Positions 11,536 to 20,987 of a stretch of 41,952 bases of DNA are shown piece by piece. The position numbers were made by a program, and so were the translations under genes. This DNA comes from Tissierellia bacterium (GTDB taxonomy: Bacteria > Bacillota > Clostridia > Tissierellales > Tepidimicrobiaceae): NCBI GenBank assembly GCA_012728595.1, contig JAAYEU010000035.1, forward strand, positions 1 through 41,952. The letters are read 5' to 3'. Below the pieces are notes generated by a model that saw only the letters and a list, made by a program, of their open reading frames with translations, did no database searches and was not told the DNA's origin. Every line of letters starts with the position of its first letter. Positions within the stretch are counted from its first letter, which is position 1.

Positions 11536-14500
11536 CTAATTCATATTACATAGTTTTTTATACCTACAATATATCTGGCAATCTTTAGCCATTTCGTACT
11601 CTTCTATAGCATCCTTTGAGTTTATAAATCTTATAAATTCTACCAAATCCCTATAATTTTTTTGTAAACTGCCTTCATCGGTAGGGATTTCAACCATTTC
11701 TCCCGTCTCTAAAAAGAGAATGGCTGCCCTTTTTATTTCCATATTGGTAATTCTCTTGAAGGCATTGGCATAAAGTTGTAGTTGCGGTTCATAGACTTTA
11801 ACCAATTGGGATAGATTTTTAACCCTATTGGTTTTAAAGTCTAAGATTTCAGCCTTCCCATCTTTGATATTTATTCTATCTATTATACCATTTAGATAAA
11901 CATCCTCTACCTTCAAATAAAATTCCTTTTCGGAATAAATATGGTCGTAATCCTCGTCATAATATTTCAGATAATTTTCCATATATATTTTAAGTTCTTT
12001 CCCTATTCCCTCATTATAGTCTAATCCAAAGGAGTGAACTACCCTTTTCATTAGCTCTTCTGCTTCCATGCCCATTTTATAATACTGGCAAAACTTATGC
12101 ATTATATCCCCTTTTAAGGTGGGCTCCAAAATAGAACCTTCTCCCCCTTGATGGCTAGATTCTAATTCTAATGGAAGCCTACTATAATAACTTAGGAAAA
12201 ACCTTCTCCTGCACTGTTTAAAGTCAATATATTGGGATGGGCTTATCCTGGTAAAAGCCCTCTTATTATATCCTTCTAGACTTGCTATCAATGGGAAATC
12301 CTTATGCCTGGAGGAGTCAAGCTTAATCCCTCTTCCCAGCCCCTTTATAGTTTGCCTGCTAGAGGGCTGCTTTTTTACACTATCTATTAGGGTTATCCTA
12401 TCATAATCTAATAGGTCTTTAATCATCTTCTTAAATCCACTATCCTTGCCCTGATTCCCGATTATCAACCTTTTTTGTGCCCTGGTCATGGCTACATATA
12501 ATAATCGCTTGTACTCCTCATCTTCTAAAAGTTTCCTATTCCCTTTTATTTTATCATAAAAAGGGGAGACTTTATCATATTTAAAAGCAATTCCCCTATC
12601 TTTATCCAATAAAATATAGGGTCTGTTGTAATTAAAAGCTCTGGCCATCTGTGGAATTATGACTACTGGAAATTGTAATCCCTTGGATTTATGGATGGTC
12701 ATAAGCTTAACTACATCTGCATCTTCTGAATAGATCTTGGCTTGGGATTCATCGGAATCCTTTATCCTTTCGATATAATCTATAAAATCTTCCAATGACC
12801 CTGAGCTATTTCTGTCGAAGTCGAGGGCTAGGCTTAAGAACTTATATACATTGGAAACCAATTGCCTTCCTGAAGGGTATAGCATAAGGCTTTCTAGGTA
12901 ATGGGTAGAATCAATTAACTCCTCTAACAGATGATTTATTCCATAAAGGTCCTTCTTTATCATAAGCTTATGAATCAATGCTCTTGCCTTGTCAAGCTTC
13001 TTTCTTTCCACTTCATCTATATATTCTATATCCTTATCCATGGTATCTAATAAAGAGCCTTGTCTGTACCTTAAAAGCCAATAAAGGGTTTTATCCGAGA
13101 CCCCAACCATGGGGCTTCTTAAAAAACCTATAGTTGAAATGGTATCAAATCTATTGCTGATAGCCTTTAATCCATTGATTAAATCTACAACCTCCTGCCT
13201 ATGATAAAATCCCTTGCCTCCAGCATTATAATAGGGTATGCCATACTCAACTAGGCTGTCTTCATATATATAGTCTAAAGTTGTAGCCCTAAAAAGAAGG
13301 GCAAAATCTCCATACTTAAATTCACCCGCATCCACCAATTCCTTTATTCTACTAGCAATTAACCGGCTTTCATAAAAGGCATTATACTCTGTTGCATCAA
13401 CATTGGCAGGTGGCTTTAAATCCTCTTTTTCTAAAATCTCTACATCTATCTGATTGCTGGATTTATGGTAACTTTTTAAGCCTATATAGCTTTCCTCCAT
13501 CAACTTATGGAATAAGGAGTTTACAAAGTCCAATATGGTATCTACAGTTCTAAAGTTTATATCCAGCTTTATGGGTTCTACACTGGAATATTCTTTAATA
13601 TCCTCCATTACATCATAAAAAACCTCTAAATCCGCCCCTCTAAAACCATATATGGACTGCTTTGGGTCTCCTACTATGAATAGGTTGTTCCTATCTAAGG
13701 TATTTTTTTTAGAACAGAGCTTATAAAATATCTTTTTCTGCAATTCATTAGTATCTTGGAATTCATCTATCATGAAATATCTAAACTTTTTCTGATATTT
13801 TTCCCTGATACCTTCATCCTCTAATAATTGTAGAGCCAATAGCTGTAAATCGTCATAATCAAGGCTTCCAAGCTTATCCTTTTCTTCCCTGTACCTACTG
13901 TCTATTTCCAGTAATAGTTTAAAAATCCCTTGGTAAGCCCATAGATTTTCCTTCTCCTTTATAAAGAGACCCCTTAAGATAGCCTCCTTTAGGCTTTCTA
14001 TCCTTTCTGCTTCCTTTGAATTAGTCCCTATATTTTCATATAGATATTCTAATATATTGGCTAAATCCTTCCTTTCATACTTTCCTTCATAGAAAGCTAT
14101 CCAAATCGGATGGGTCTTAAGCTTATAGATTTTAGCATTCTTCCTAGCCTTATCCATCAGATACAGGAAACTATCCTTGATAAATTGTAAATCCTCCTCA
14201 TCTATTTGGATATTGGAAATATAAGATAGGGTCATATCCCTTACCCTTTCAATGGAATAGCCTACGGTCCTTATCTTATGATAGATGGACTTTAATTCCT
14301 CAGCCACTTTATCTAGATGGTCCCTTTTAAATAGCTTAACTAGCTTATATATGTCTTCATCCTCTTCTATAAATTCTAGTAGGACTTCTAATATGGTCTC
14401 TTCTAGTAAAAGGTCTGCCTCCTCCTGTTCTAGCACGTTAAACATGGGATCAATTCCTAGGCTTAAGGGGTTCTCCCTTATTAGATTCCCGCAGAAGCTG

Positions 14501-14802
14501 TGGATGGTGGAGATATTGGCCTTCTCCATATCCCTATAGAATCTAATCCATTTTTCCCCTTGAGGAAATCTTTTCTTTATTTCCTCCCTTATCCTTTCCT
14601 TCATCTCCTGGGTAGCCTTTTTGGTAAAGGTTATGGCTACTATGGATTCGACCTCCTTGTTCTCCTCTAATTCCCCATGTTCAAGTATATGGACATATCT
14701 TTCAGTAAGGACCTTAGTTTTCCCTGTACCTGCACCTGCATTCACTGCTAGATTTCTATCTATGGTAGTAATGGCTAGCTTTTGTTCTTTGGTCTTGTCC
14801 AT
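11536..14802 (-). CDS. addA: AddA: ATP-dependent helicase/nuclease subunit A
   Basis: About 1088 aa, slightly shorter than B. subtilis AddA. UvrD/RecB-type helicase motifs: Walker A AGAGTGKTK, motif II DEFQDTN, GDPKQSIYGFRGAD, LDINFRT, TIHKSKGLQFPVV and YVAMTRAQKR. The C-terminal PD-(D/E)XK nuclease has GDIMHKF, EILDFKTNR and QLQLYA. With AddB it resects double-strand breaks until Chi and loads RecA. The start is ATG at 14802 (7 nt from GGGAGG), with ATG 14805 as alternative; both overlap the addB TGA, so translation is coupled. Oddity: the nuclease carries cysteines in FKQCRRRFF and CQIYCRYKKLC near its end, the same pattern as the Fe-S cluster of AddB. Confidence 0.95.
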   Translation of the reverse strand: MDKTKEQKLAITTIDRNLAVNAGAGTGKTKVLTERYVHILEHGELEENKEVESIVAITFTKKATQEMKERIREEIKKRFPQGEKWIRFYRDMEKANISTIHSFCGNLIRENPLSLGIDPMFNVLEQEEADLLLEETILEVLLEFIEEDEDIYKLVKLFKRDHLDKVAEELKSIYHKIRTVGYSIERVRDMTLSYISNIQIDEEDLQFIKDSFLYLMDKARKNAKIYKLKTHPIWIAFYEGKYERKDLANILEYLYENIGTNSKEAERIESLKEAILRGLFIKEKENLWAYQGIFKLLLEIDSRYREEKDKLGSLDYDDLQLLALQLLEDEGIREKYQKKFRYFMIDEFQDTNELQKKIFYKLCSKKNTLDRNNLFIVGDPKQSIYGFRGADLEVFYDVMEDIKEYSSVEPIKLDINFRTVDTILDFVNSLFHKLMEESYIGLKSYHKSSNQIDVEILEKEDLKPPANVDATEYNAFYESRLIASRIKELVDAGEFKYGDFALLFRATTLDYIYEDSLVEYGIPYYNAGGKGFYHRQEVVDLINGLKAISNRFDTISTIGFLRSPMVGVSDKTLYWLLRYRQGSLLDTMDKDIEYIDEVERKKLDKARALIHKLMIKKDLYGINHLLEELIDSTHYLESLMLYPSGRQLVSNVYKFLSLALDFDRNSSGSLEDFIDYIERIKDSDESQAKIYSEDADVVKLMTIHKSKGLQFPVVIIPQMARAFNYNRPYILLDKDRGIAFKYDKVSPFYDKIKGNRKLLEDEEYKRLLYVAMTRAQKRLIIGNQGKDSGFKKMIKDLLDYDRITLIDSVKKQPSSRQTIKGLGRGIKLDSSRHKDFPLIASLEGYNKRAFTRISPSQYIDFKQCRRRFFLSYYSRLPLELESSHQGGEGSILEPTLKGDIMHKFCQYYKMGMEAEELMKRVVHSFGLDYNEGIGKELKIYMENYLKYYDEDYDHIYSEKEFYLKVEDVYLNGIIDRINIKDGKAEILDFKTNRVKNLSQLVKVYEPQLQLYANAFKRITNMEIKRAAILFLETGEMVEIPTDEGSLQKNYRDLVEFIRFINSKDAIEEYEMAKDCQIYCRYKKLCNMN

Positions 14803-17800
14803 CATTCTACCTCCCAAGTTTGCTTATATCTACAGATTTGCCTATATATACAATAGGAAGAACACTCTAGTGGATTGACTGAAAAGTTACCAGCAAGGAT
14901 AGATTCAATAAAGAACTTAATATGTTGCTTGGTGGTATTTAACAATTCCTCCAGCTCTTCTTCAGTTAGTGCCCCCCTGTTTGTCTTACTGATCAAATTC
15001 TTTTCATCTACATGACCAAGTTTTGCCTGGAATTCACCAGTAGAAATTATACCATAAAAGGCTGCTACCACCTGTCTTTCCTGTGACATTATATAGATGG
15101 GTAGCTGTAGGGACAGGCCAGCTTTCATATGGCCTATATCCCTTATATTGGAGCTAGAGTTTTTGTAATCTATTATTATATACTTATCTTCATCTACATA
15201 CTTGTCAATCCTATCTATAACGCCGGCAAAGGGTATTTTCATACCATCTATTTCTATTTGGAAGGGCTTTGTTCTTCCAAAGGATATTTCATAGCCTACT
15301 GGTACTATTTTCTTCTTCATCCTGCTGAGCCTATTTAAATCGGATTGTATGAATTCCAGTATTCTACTTGCATTGTTTTCTATTCTAAGCTGCCAGAGTT
15401 TAGAATCTAAATCTATGTTAAGCAAGTTCATATTATCCCTTATCTTACTGACTATAAAATCGTAGGTTTCTTCTGGATTAAAGTCCTTCTCCCCCATAAT
15501 ATGTGCCCTTATCTCCTCTTGGTAAGCATTGTAATATTCTTTTAACACCTGATGATTCACCTGTCCCCTATCCAAGGGAGTAAAATCTTGAAACTGCCTC
15601 TCCATCTCCTCCACATTTAAAAGATTGTTCAAGAGGAAGTAATAAGGACACCTTCCATAGGATTCTAAGTAGCTGATGGAATATACCTTCTTCTTATGGA
15701 TATTCCTTATATCCTCTGCTATATATTCATCCTCTATATTGCCGCTGTATTGGTTAAATTCCCTTTTATCCCTTTCTGCCTCACATTTAATCCTTTCATC
15801 TATTTCCAGTAGAATATCTTCCTCTATACAGCCGTAGATTGGAATTTGCTCCTCTTCATTAGAATTCAAAGTGTAAGTTTCCAATAAATACTGGTATAAT
15901 TCTCTCCTGGTGGTCAGCTGATCGGCCTCTTCCTTGATTATATAATCCATGTCTACTTCTATTAGATTAAGCTTTTCTTTAACATCCTTCCCATTAATGG
16001 AGTTTAAAAGCTCATCTAAAAAGATGGAGGGTATATCCTTTTCATCCTCCGTAGCATTTTCCGAATAGGATAGGTATAGTTTTTCCTTACAGCTGGCAAT
16101 GGCAGTTGAAAATAGGATTGCCTCCTTATCCAATTTTTCATAGTAGTTCTTTACATCCAATCCCATATCCTTTAATGTATGATAATTTTCCTCCCTAAAG
16201 AAAAAGTTTTCTTCCATTAGGTTAGGATAATTTCCCTGGGATAGGCCCGTTATAAAGACTATCCTATATTTTTTCCCCCGGGCCGTTACCGGAGTTAGGA
16301 TGTTTACTCCATTGAAATTGCCCAAAACCTCCACTATGCTTTCCTTCTCAAAATAGGATGATAATAGGTTTATATAGTCCTTATAGCTAATCTCATCCTG
16401 GATTATATGATAGAGCTTTGAAACCCTATTTAATATATCTCTCAATTTATTTAAAGCCGACATATCCCTATGGAAGAGTTGATAATCTTTAATTTGCTCA
16501 CAGATATTAAAGATTTTTTCTTCTATTTCATAGCCTTCCAAAAAATTCATAAGGATGGTAGTATAGTCCTTTATACTAGCCTTATGGGGGATCATATTAA
16601 ACTCCTCTTCTAGGCTAAGCAATAAGGCCTCTATTTCCGAATCATAGGGAGTAGGGTTAAAACTAAGGTCTTTTATCAGTTCTTCTATGGACTTGAAGGG
16701 TATCTTTCTTAGATGGTATTCTATGGCTTCCCTATCCTCTATATTTATTAGATTAAAGTAACTGCTCTTTATTCTATTTATGATGGATTCTTTGGTATTT
16801 TCTTTAAGCTGTAAAATATGTAACAATTCCCTTATCAGGGGAAGTTCAATCAGCTTTATCTCCTTATTTAAAGATGTTGGTATCCCTTCTTCCTTAAACA
16901 CTTGGAATAGCCTGTCCTTATAGTCGGCAGAATCTACCAATACTATTGCCATATCCTTTAAACTAATGCCCTCTAGCTTATGCCTCTTTATTAATTCGGC
17001 AATCTTTTTCAATTCTAGATGAGTATTGGCTGCCTTTATAAGATAGGTATTCGAATTAGGCTCTAATTTTTTGGTCCCCCCACTAAATATGTGGTTGGCC
17101 AACTCTTCATAATAGCTTAAGCCTCCCCTTTCCTCCTTTTCTACCCTATAACCTAGCTTTTCAAGTAAGCCTAGAGTTTCTATAAGGGTGTTAAAATTAT
17201 TCTTCCTATTAAAGGGCATATTGATAAATATTGGACAATTAGTCTTGCTTATCTCCTTCAACAGCTCCAGTTCCTGAGGCCTGAAATCGAAGAAGCCGTC
17301 TATTATTATATAGTCTAAACCGTTGAAAAAGCTATTGTCCTCCCTTAATAAGCTTAATGCTTTAAAGAAGCTTCCTTCCCTATCAATTAAATTGTGAAAA
17401 CTTAGCTGTCTTTCATATTCCTCATAGATTAAACCTATTTCGGTAAAGAAGGGCTCCTTTGGACAACTTTCGAAATAGTCTTCTACGCTTATTAAGGACC
17501 TCTTTATTTGGCCGATTATATAGATTAAGCTGGAGATGAAGCCCTTTTTGCTGGAAATACTCCTATAATAATTTAGTTTACCTTCTTCCATTAATCTATT
17601 GACTATTTGATAGAGTATAATTTCTTTGGCATTTGAATCAACTAGGGTATAAAACCTGTCTTCCAGCAGTCTATCAACTATGTCATCAAAGGTAAAAAGG
17701 TTAATGTCAAAGGCCCCTCCTACCTCTTCTATCATCCTTTGCCTATAATCCTCCAACAGAATTCCATTAGGCAGTATATAATAAAATCTATCTCCTCTAC

Positions 17801-17888
17801 CTTCTATTAAATAATTTATAGCCTTCTTAAACAATTCTTCTTTTTTATAGTTGTTATAAAGGCCCAAGTAGACTATTCTATCTACCAT
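14802..17888 (-). CDS. addB: AddB: ATP-dependent nuclease subunit B
   Basis: 1028 aa, somewhat shorter than B. subtilis AddB (about 1166). The N-terminal helicase-like region has lost Walker A (YYILPNGILLEDYRQR where GxGKT would be), as expected for AddB, which recognises Chi rather than unwinding. Remnant motifs include ILTPVTARGKKYRIVFITGLSQGNYP. The C-terminal nuclease has GQVNHQVL, GVIDRID and YIIIDYKNSS, flanked by the four Fe-S cysteines: YGRCPYYF and, near the end, CSSYCIYRQIC. It lies 10 nt downstream of the ROK kinase gene (RBS TAGGAGGAG overlapping that stop) and overlaps addA. Strong call from neighbours and the nuclease/Fe-S pattern. Confidence 0.93.
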   Translation of the reverse strand: MVDRIVYLGLYNNYKKEELFKKAINYLIEGRGDRFYYILPNGILLEDYRQRMIEEVGGAFDINLFTFDDIVDRLLEDRFYTLVDSNAKEIILYQIVNRLMEEGKLNYYRSISSKKGFISSLIYIIGQIKRSLISVEDYFESCPKEPFFTEIGLIYEEYERQLSFHNLIDREGSFFKALSLLREDNSFFNGLDYIIIDGFFDFRPQELELLKEISKTNCPIFINMPFNRKNNFNTLIETLGLLEKLGYRVEKEERGGLSYYEELANHIFSGGTKKLEPNSNTYLIKAANTHLELKKIAELIKRHKLEGISLKDMAIVLVDSADYKDRLFQVFKEEGIPTSLNKEIKLIELPLIRELLHILQLKENTKESIINRIKSSYFNLINIEDREAIEYHLRKIPFKSIEELIKDLSFNPTPYDSEIEALLLSLEEEFNMIPHKASIKDYTTILMNFLEGYEIEEKIFNICEQIKDYQLFHRDMSALNKLRDILNRVSKLYHIIQDEISYKDYINLLSSYFEKESIVEVLGNFNGVNILTPVTARGKKYRIVFITGLSQGNYPNLMEENFFFREENYHTLKDMGLDVKNYYEKLDKEAILFSTAIASCKEKLYLSYSENATEDEKDIPSIFLDELLNSINGKDVKEKLNLIEVDMDYIIKEEADQLTTRRELYQYLLETYTLNSNEEEQIPIYGCIEEDILLEIDERIKCEAERDKREFNQYSGNIEDEYIAEDIRNIHKKKVYSISYLESYGRCPYYFLLNNLLNVEEMERQFQDFTPLDRGQVNHQVLKEYYNAYQEEIRAHIMGEKDFNPEETYDFIVSKIRDNMNLLNIDLDSKLWQLRIENNASRILEFIQSDLNRLSRMKKKIVPVGYEISFGRTKPFQIEIDGMKIPFAGVIDRIDKYVDEDKYIIIDYKNSSSNIRDIGHMKAGLSLQLPIYIMSQERQVVAAFYGIISTGEFQAKLGHVDEKNLISKTNRGALTEEELEELLNTTKQHIKFFIESILAGNFSVNPLECSSYCIYRQICRYKQTWEVE

Positions 17889-17898
17889 TTTACTCCTC

Positions 17899-18795
17899 CT
17901 AAATATTATCTAAAGCTATTTTAGCAGCCCCAATCATTCCTGCATTATTTAAAAATTGGGCAGGCAAAATCTCCGTCCCCTTGGGGCTATTGCAATTCTT
18001 ATTATAATAATCAATTACCCTATCCCACCAAACTTCCCTAGAGTTAATGACTCCTCCCCCTATTATGATGGCTTCCGGATCGAATATATTCTTTATGGAT
18101 ATCAGATAAATACCTAAATCGCCTATGAATCTATCGATAGCCTCCTTGGCCTTTTCATCTAGCTGATAGTTACTAAAAATCATCTCTCCCTTAAGCCTTT
18201 GGCCTGATAGCTCAAGATAGTTCTTTTCAATGGCCCTTCCAGCCAAGTATTGTTCAGCACAGCCCTTCTGCCCGCAGCCACATTCCCTGCCATGGGGATA
18301 TAGTATAATATGGCCTAGTTCGGCTCCCTGATAATTTTTCCCATGCCAAATTCCCGACTCCCTGGTAAAGATGGCTCCTCCAACTCCTGTCCCCAAGGTT
18401 ATCATGATGAAGCTGTCTAAATTTTTCCCTGCACCTAGCCAGCTTTCACAGATAGCAGCCACATTGGCATCATTTTCTATGAAGATTGGAATATCCCTAA
18501 ATTCTTTAGACAATTCCCCCCTAATATTGGTACCAGCCCAACCGCTTATATTCCCGCCTACTTCTAATACTTGTCCCCTTTCGGTATGAATAAAACCCGG
18601 TGAGCCCAAGCCAATGCCAACTACTCCTTCCTCCAACAGTTCATCTATCACTTCCTTAATATTGTGAAGGACTTGCTCCCTACCGCCAGAAGAACCTGTT
18701 GGCCTCATACTCCTTTTTAATATATTGCCTTCTTGGTCAATTAATCCTCCATAGATGCTGGTTCCACCTAAATCTATCCCTATAACTTTTTTCAT
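17899..18795 (-). CDS. ROK-family sugar kinase (glucokinase or amino-sugar kinase)
   Basis: 298 aa, typical ROK length. ATP-binding motif IGIDLGGTSIYGGLID, catalytic Asp in FIENDANVAAICE, TLGTGVGGAI, and the zinc motif GHIILYPHGRECGCGQKGCAEQYLAG with one His and three Cys ligands. ROK kinases phosphorylate glucose, N-acetylglucosamine, N-acetylmannosamine or related sugars; the ExGH-type substrate loop (GAELGH) does not decide. It begins 22 nt after nagZ, which releases GlcNAc/MurNAc residues from wall fragments, so an N-acetylglucosamine kinase role in wall recycling is a good contextual guess. RBS AGGAGGG precedes the ATG. Confidence 0.9.
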   Translation of the reverse strand: MKKVIGIDLGGTSIYGGLIDQEGNILKRSMRPTGSSGGREQVLHNIKEVIDELLEEGVVGIGLGSPGFIHTERGQVLEVGGNISGWAGTNIRGELSKEFRDIPIFIENDANVAAICESWLGAGKNLDSFIMITLGTGVGGAIFTRESGIWHGKNYQGAELGHIILYPHGRECGCGQKGCAEQYLAGRAIEKNYLELSGQRLKGEMIFSNYQLDEKAKEAIDRFIGDLGIYLISIKNIFDPEAIIIGGGVINSREVWWDRVIDYYNKNCNSPKGTEILPAQFLNNAGMIGAAKIALDNI

Positions 18796-18817: not shown

Positions 18818-20074
18818 CTAAGGATTAACCTTCTTATCTATCCTATCCAGCAATTTCTTGCTTTTAGAGTTTAATAGTTCTAAATCAATTTTATCTATGA
18901 TATTGTCTTCAAATCCATACTTTTTCTTTGTTTTAATAATTCTATATGTTTTTTCATCTATTTCTTCTTCTGTAAGCCTCCCCTCTAATATTTCTTCCTT
19001 AATCCTTTCAATTACCTTCAAATGGTTTTCATAGCCATGGCATATTAATAGTACATCACCACCAGCCTTTAAAAATTTAACTGCTGCCTCTTCTATGCTA
19101 AGGTTTTCAACAATGGCTCCCATGGTCATATCGTCTGAAAAAATCAATCCTTCAAATCCTAATTCATTCCTTAACAAACCCTCTATAATTTTATTCGATA
19201 AGGTAGAAGGATATTCACTATCTAGCTTTGGAAATAGGATGTGGGCAACCATTATGCCGTCTACTCCCTTTTTTATGGCCTCCTTAAAGGGAGTAAGCTC
19301 TAATTCCTTCAATTCATCCAATTCCTTTTCTATAATGGGAAGCTCTATATGGGAGTCTATGTGGGTGTCTCCGTGGCCTGGGAAGTGCTTGACTACCGCT
19401 AATATGCCTTCTTCCTTTATCCCTTCCATTACCCTTAAACCATGGGTTATGACTTTAGATTTATCTGAACCAAAAGCCCTATCCCCTATAACTGGATTAT
19501 TGGGATTGGAATTTACATCTAGAACTGGGGCAAAGTTCACATTAAAGCCCAAGGCCTTTACCCTCTTTCCTATTATTGTACCATATTCAAGGGAAATGGC
19601 TTTATCTCCCCTTCTTCATACCTTCTCAGCTGGGGGCAATTTTGTAAAGGAATTGGGTAGCCTTGATACCCTGCCCCCTTCTTCATCTATGGATAAGAAA
19701 AGGGGTATGGGGTTTTGTGAGTTAAGGCTTTTTAGAGAATTTAGAAGGCTTAAGGCTTGTTCCTCATCTACTATATTATGCTTAAATAAGATGAATCCTC
19801 CTATTTTATAATCCTTAACCATCCTTTCAATATGTTCATCTACTTTAGGTCCATCTAAGCCTATGATTAACAATTGACCTATTTTCTCATCTAGGGTCAT
19901 ATTATCTATCATCTTTTTGATATCATCCAGCTCTTCTTCCTCCACTAAATGCTCCTCATCTAGCCTTGGAATCTCTTTATTATCCTCATCACCATTATTA
20001 TCTATATTCTTATCAGTCTTTGAACAAGCTGTAATAAGGGTAGCTATAATCAGTAGAAGACAAATCCTTTTCAT
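18818..20074 (-). pseudogene. nagZ: nagZ: lipoprotein beta-N-acetylhexosaminidase (GH3), interrupted by an in-frame TGA
   Basis: A GH3 beta-N-acetylglucosaminidase gene of 418 sense codons plus one internal stop. A lipoprotein signal (lipobox LITAC, Cys17) precedes MTLDEKIGQLLIIG and SIDEEGGRVSRLP. After KLPPAEKV the frame meets TGA (19618-19616, codon 153) and continues in the same frame as RRGDKAISLEYGTIIGKRVKALGFNVNFAPVLDVN. The dyad motif KHFPGHG and nucleophile motif FSDDMTMG are intact downstream. Family members usually have Gly at the stop, and GGA to TGA is a single change. No frameshift or other decay is visible, so this is a recent mutation, a read error or readthrough. I see no RBS for restart; the possible TTG at 19552 has none. 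If functional it would cleave GlcNAc-MurNAc outside the membrane, like B. subtilis NagZ. Confidence 0.88.
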
Positions 20075-20149: not shown

Positions 20150-20175
20150 AAAACCTGCTTAAGAAAGCAGGTTTT
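20150..20175 (-). terminator. Terminator of the opp-ykfC operon
   Basis: AAAACCTGCTT and AAGCAGGTTTT form an 11-bp stem with a 4-nt loop; its edge coincides with the stop codon of the NlpC/P60 gene. T residues inside the 3' arm end the structure. Confidence 0.75.
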
Positions 20176-20987
20176 TAAAATAAAGTGGCTATTTCCTTAA
20201 CGTCTGCTAAATCCTCCCTATAGTCGTCATGGTCTGGATTTAGACTGTTTAGTACCACACCTCCTGATGCTCCCGTTGAATGGATGTACCTACCACCGCC
20301 AATATAGATGGCTACATGCCCAGGCCAATATAGTAGATCAGCTTTTTTAATCTCATCCATGCTAATTCTCTTCATATTGAACTCCTCTTTGATTTGGGAG
20401 TCCCTAAAAATTACTATCCCATTAATTAAATAGGATACGGATGCTAAGCCTGAACAGTCGATGCCTAGAGGGGTCTTTCCGCCCCATCTGTACTGGGTGC
20501 CTAAGTAGCTTAAGGCTGTTTCTACCACCCTTTGGCGGAATAATTCCTCATCTATTTCACTTCCAGGCCTAATCCTTTCCCCTATAAACTCCTTTCTAAC
20601 CCATCCCTTTTCTTGGTTAGGAAATGCAACTTCTACCCAATCTTTTTCTTCCTTGCCAGTCAGTTTTATTACTGCCCCCCTAGTTAAGAGCTTGATGCTA
20701 TAGCTCTGATATCTTGGCTCCTTCATCACATCTACAATACCCCAAGTTATTATGTGATCTGCCTCCTCATCCCACTTCTTGGCCAGCTGACTATCTATTA
20801 ATAGATAGTCCCCATGGATATACCCTCTATATCTATAGTCGGTTTCTACATAATACCAGTTATCCTTTTCTTCCCTTAATATGGTTACCAACCTTCCAAA
20901 GATGGATTCATCAGCTGCTTCCTTGTCAAAGCCCATTTCCTGCTTTAAGGGACCTATAGTATCGGTTATAACTGCTAGTTTATCCAT
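20175..20987 (-). CDS. Cytoplasmic NlpC/P60 endopeptidase with SH3b domains, YkfC type
   Basis: 270 aa without signal peptide, so it should act in the cytoplasm. Two bacterial SH3-like segments (about 1-65 and 80-140) precede an NlpC/P60 domain with the catalytic triad Cys178 (GIDCSGL), His224 ([10 protein letters not shown]) and His236 (YIHSTG). This is the architecture of B. subtilis YkfC, a gamma-D-glutamyl-L-amino acid endopeptidase (dipeptidyl-peptidase VI) that cuts imported murein tripeptide into L-Ala-D-Glu and a diamino acid. Its ATG overlaps the end of oppF by 8 bases, coupling it to the peptide importer. The product would be the substrate of the epimerase encoded at 29007. RBS GGTGGAGGG lies upstream. 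Confidence 0.92.

Follow-up and report, generated by a model that had tools for sequence, protein, structure and literature searches.

Within the 41,952-nucleotide stretch of Tissierellia bacterium DNA analysed here (the window), we found a nagZ-like gene, of the cell-wall recycling pathway, that is broken by a single in-frame TGA. The most likely reading, to which we give a probability of roughly 55%, is that the consensus base is wrong at this point and that the gene is intact in the organism. The TGA would then stem either from a sequencing or assembly error or from the inclusion of a minority strain's base in the consensus, and the organism itself would have a normal, uninterrupted nagZ that encodes an N-acetylglucosaminidase and heads a nagZ-ROK-addBA cluster. 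A base error gains support from the further single stops that the assembly holds, one of which lies in the sole copy of ribF; these isolated stops may share a technical cause. The interruption of nagZ has an ordinary cause, and it matters little in itself.

The frame of this gene runs on the minus strand from an ATG at 20074 to a stop codon ending at 18818 and spans 418 codons, just one of which is an internal stop (Table 1), so that the claim of the sequence-only reading, a single TGA with the same frame on both sides, is borne out. Since a homologous frame of 400 codons with one stop is unlike chance, the assembly, as it stands, truly contains this interruption. Profile searches placed positions 1–88 of the PF00933 model before the TGA and positions 102–315 after it in the same frame. 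Each part matches the model on its own as well, and the whole gene, when read through, yields a single match of about 292–293 bits (cut-off 27) with one TGA inside. No damage is seen in the motifs DEEGGRVSRL, KHFPGHGDT.SH and SDDMTMGAI, in keeping with the earlier assignment of both halves to a GH3 NagZ with undamaged catalytic motifs; the catalytic loop and the SDD nucleophile motif lie after the TGA. Judged by the full match to the N-terminal domain and by the shared KHFPGHG(D)T and SDDMTMGAI motifs, the gene is predicted to specify a NagZ beta-N-acetylglucosaminidase of the GH3 family (PF00933). Its N-terminus is of the lipoprotein type (MKRICLLLIIATLITAC...), which is common to it and the NagZ homologues of Gram-positive bacteria, whereas the in-frame TGA at codon 153 sets it apart from the NagZ GH3 enzymes. 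The uninterrupted open frame present in the relatives is absent here, and the longest ORF with a start codon in the C-terminal fragment begins with the TTG at 19552. No other GH3 match was found across the 2.19 Mb of this genome.

Table 1. Features of the interrupted nagZ gene and its neighbours in the window, and the other single in-frame stops detected in the assembly
Feature	Location	Strand	Basis
nagZ-like GH3 gene, lipoprotein-type N-terminal signal, interrupted once	18818..20074	-	frame, family match
In-frame TGA, nagZ codon 153	19616..19618	-	frame reading, homologue alignment
nagZ N-terminal fragment, 152 aa, GH3 profile positions 1-88, without the catalytic His/Asp motifs	19619..20074	-	
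nagZ C-terminal fragment, KHFPGHG and SDDMTMGAI motifs, GH3 profile positions 102-315	18818..19615	-	
9-bp hairpin right after the TGA, -10.2 kcal/mol	19589..19612	-	folding
NlpC/P60 SH3-domain peptidase gene, intact, upstream of nagZ	20175..20987	-	
ROK-family kinase gene, intact, own ribosome-binding site (aggaggg) before the ATG	17899..18795	-	
addB, intact	14802..17888	-	
addA, intact	11536..14817	-	
ribF, single in-frame TGA, Gly in congener	contig 117 position 24818		reference-based stop scan
Metallophosphoesterase-like gene, single TAA, Ser in congener	contig 117 position 38984		reference-based stop scan
Nitroreductase-like gene, single TAA, Leu in congener	contig 51 position 1941		reference-based stop scan

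A match to nagZ was present in 40 of the 60 related genomes searched, and the gene is retained in nearly the whole family, adjoining the addB region. The nearest homologue belongs to a member of the same genus (henceforth the congener) and shows 66% identity; at the DNA level the congener and this genome are 73% identical. We aligned 109 homologues having a residue at the site of the TGA, with the window's own copies excluded, and glycine was found in 104 of them, which agrees with the earlier claim that Gly is usual there. The rest have alanine (3), serine (1) and isoleucine (1, in a gap-shifted row), and cysteine or a stop occurs at this site in none of the 109. The changed base had been placed at plus-strand position 19618, the first position of the codon, and this was confirmed. 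Stops flagged inside the nagZ genes of two relatives were rejected, as these are their normal 3' ends, and no exact match was found among the viral contigs searched.

The signs of an old pseudogene, namely extra stops, frameshifts or faster change, were not seen in nagZ. Averaged over 18 homologues, the unique changes before the TGA number 12.4 in this copy and 11.0 in the intact copy of the congener, and those after it 19.9 and 19.7, respectively. Among 91 columns that are invariant in the relatives, two differ here: the TGA itself and one change from Tyr to Leu. nagZ has been normally constrained until very recently, or still is; as the relative-rate tests were equal, a null mutation here could only be very recent.

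When a gene in a draft assembly is found interrupted, the rate at which other genes of that assembly are interrupted should be taken into account; the present assembly is a draft of 191 contigs with 93% completeness and 2% contamination. Our stop scan took in approximately 1.04 Mb of this genome and 0.8 Mb of the congener, with about 301 kb comparable against congener ORFs; the resulting lists were read by hand, and stops upstream of the true start as well as antisense ORFs were discounted in both genomes. In these ~301 kb, four single in-frame stops, nagZ included, fall within otherwise intact genes, whereas the reverse comparison, covering 302 kb of the congener, recovered no comparable internal single stop; with numbers as small as four versus zero, the difference is no more than suggestive. 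The metallophosphoesterase-like and nitroreductase-like genes, named from sequence resemblance without a family search, are both intact in the congener. Frameshifts amounted to one possible case in the same scan, which makes the damage one of substitution type. The ribF case carries most weight among the stops: one copy of the gene was found in this genome, and unless a second lies in the 7% of the genome that is missing, its TGA is probably a consensus error, because a cell should not be able to do without its sole riboflavin kinase/FAD synthetase. Interruption by a single base, several instances per assembly and substitution-type damage are features that nagZ shares with the nonsense-interrupted (pseudo)genes and consensus errors of draft and metagenome-derived assemblies, and its case shows nothing beyond the ordinary for these. 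Published work on stops in metagenome-assembled genomes did not turn up in a literature search.

The chief competitor to a wrong base, and in our estimate the second likeliest reading at somewhat under even odds, is a real and very recent nonsense mutation by which the strain lost NagZ. Translation would then end at 152 residues, with neither the catalytic loop nor the motifs, and the later half would at best be a non-functional restart product; a restart at TTG 19552 would miss the first barrel strands. Such a loss would leave the strain without its sole NagZ, as the genome showed no second GH3 match. It accords with the sense codon that relatives have at the site, with an otherwise intact and normally evolving gene, as expected of a fresh null, and with the fact that cells in laboratory culture can usually do without muropeptide recycling. 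Two further points tell against a base error: four stops per 300 kb are many for a polished short-read consensus, and for nagZ, the nitroreductase and the phosphoesterase, real recent nonsense mutations of dispensable genes would look identical. Against a true null, however, stands the retention of nagZ beside the addB region across nearly the whole family, and the like stop in ribF, present as a sole copy, probably does not reflect a true loss of the gene, which renders a technical cause likelier for all of them. Alternatively, the stop might be read through usefully often, by a near-cognate tRNA or by a Gly-inserting UGA suppressor, with some full-length NagZ as the outcome. Both of the internal TGAs found outside selenoprotein genes, those of nagZ and ribF, fall at a Gly of the relatives, and Firmicutes are known to read through UGA at a low level; however, two Gly cases are weak evidence, the other two interruptions are TAA, and TGA is a normal gene end here, terminating 46 of 293 long ORFs. 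Moreover, the base following the TGA of nagZ is A, generally a context for efficient termination. In the half of the genome that was read, no tRNA apart from tRNA-Sec has a UCA (TCA) anticodon, several of the 27 tRNAs lying outside that half. We regard such readthrough as improbable. An occasional use of UGA as a sense codon (Sec or Gly-like) at non-canonical sites in this lineage, which would make both nagZ and ribF full length, appears more improbable still; a change of the genetic code was rejected, as TGA terminates ordinary genes in this genome.

A fresh null, a base error and readthrough had been named by the sequence-only reading as the possible causes. This list was right but lacked selenocysteine, and among its three members the base error is now favoured by the other stops and the sole ribF, while readthrough has gained no positive support. 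The source organism is a Sec-decoding anaerobe: genes for tRNA-Sec (74 bits), selB (374 bits) and selA (624 bits) are all found on one contig (C175; L130, L131). GrdA-like and GrdB-like glycine reductase genes with an in-frame Sec TGA were likewise observed (L154:963, minus strand; L140:2251, plus strand). Given selA, selB, tRNA-Sec and grdA/grdB with their TGAs, a reading of the nagZ TGA as selenocysteine, which would make nagZ a selenoprotein gene in this species, needed testing; in general, Cys pairing and a SECIS model should be checked whenever a genome with Sec machinery shows an isolated in-frame TGA. As in bacterial selenoproteins with a bSECIS element, such as GrdA and GrdB, a stable hairpin lies close behind the TGA of nagZ, starting six bases from its T. 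The published bSECIS model has a stem of 4–16 bp, a loop of 3–9 nt with a G in the first two positions, a spacing of 16–37 nt and an energy of at most -7.5 kcal/mol (PMC13188914). The nagZ hairpin fits in stem and energy but fails two of the four criteria, with a spacing of 12 nt from TGA to loop and the loop AAAGCC, and the alternatives among the suboptimal folds of the site had stems of just 3 pairs. In contrast, grdB of the same genome satisfies all four criteria, with the loop GGT at 18 nt; grdA folds poorly in this simple test, which is hence not perfectly sensitive. When 3000 in-frame coding 49-mers were drawn at random from the same genome, 259 (~9%) gave an equally or more stable fold, and the hairpin is regarded as a chance occurrence. 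A published selenoprotein screen also demanded Cys homologues (PMC1088965). In nagZ the site is Gly in the relatives, with Cys in 0 of 109, and the chemistry of GH3 enzymes is without a redox step; nagZ thereby differs from bacterial selenoproteins in Cys/Sec pairing, in a fitting hairpin and in redox function. Selenocysteine in nagZ was rejected on the lack of Cys pairing, the misfit in SECIS spacing and apical G, and the background of folding; it is the least probable of all the readings considered and has been largely excluded.

Any polar effect of the nagZ stop on the expression of the ROK and addBA genes is probably weak, because the ROK gene, which starts 22 bases past the end of nagZ, is served by a separate strong ribosome-binding site. 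Terminator-like sites within nagZ did not rise above the shuffled background. The order nagZ-(ROK)-addB recurs widely in the family. A ROK kinase gene between nagZ and addB is seen here and in several family members, whereas in the congener it is absent and nagZ abuts addB. On the other side, the NlpC/P60 peptidase gene adjoins nagZ in several relatives too.
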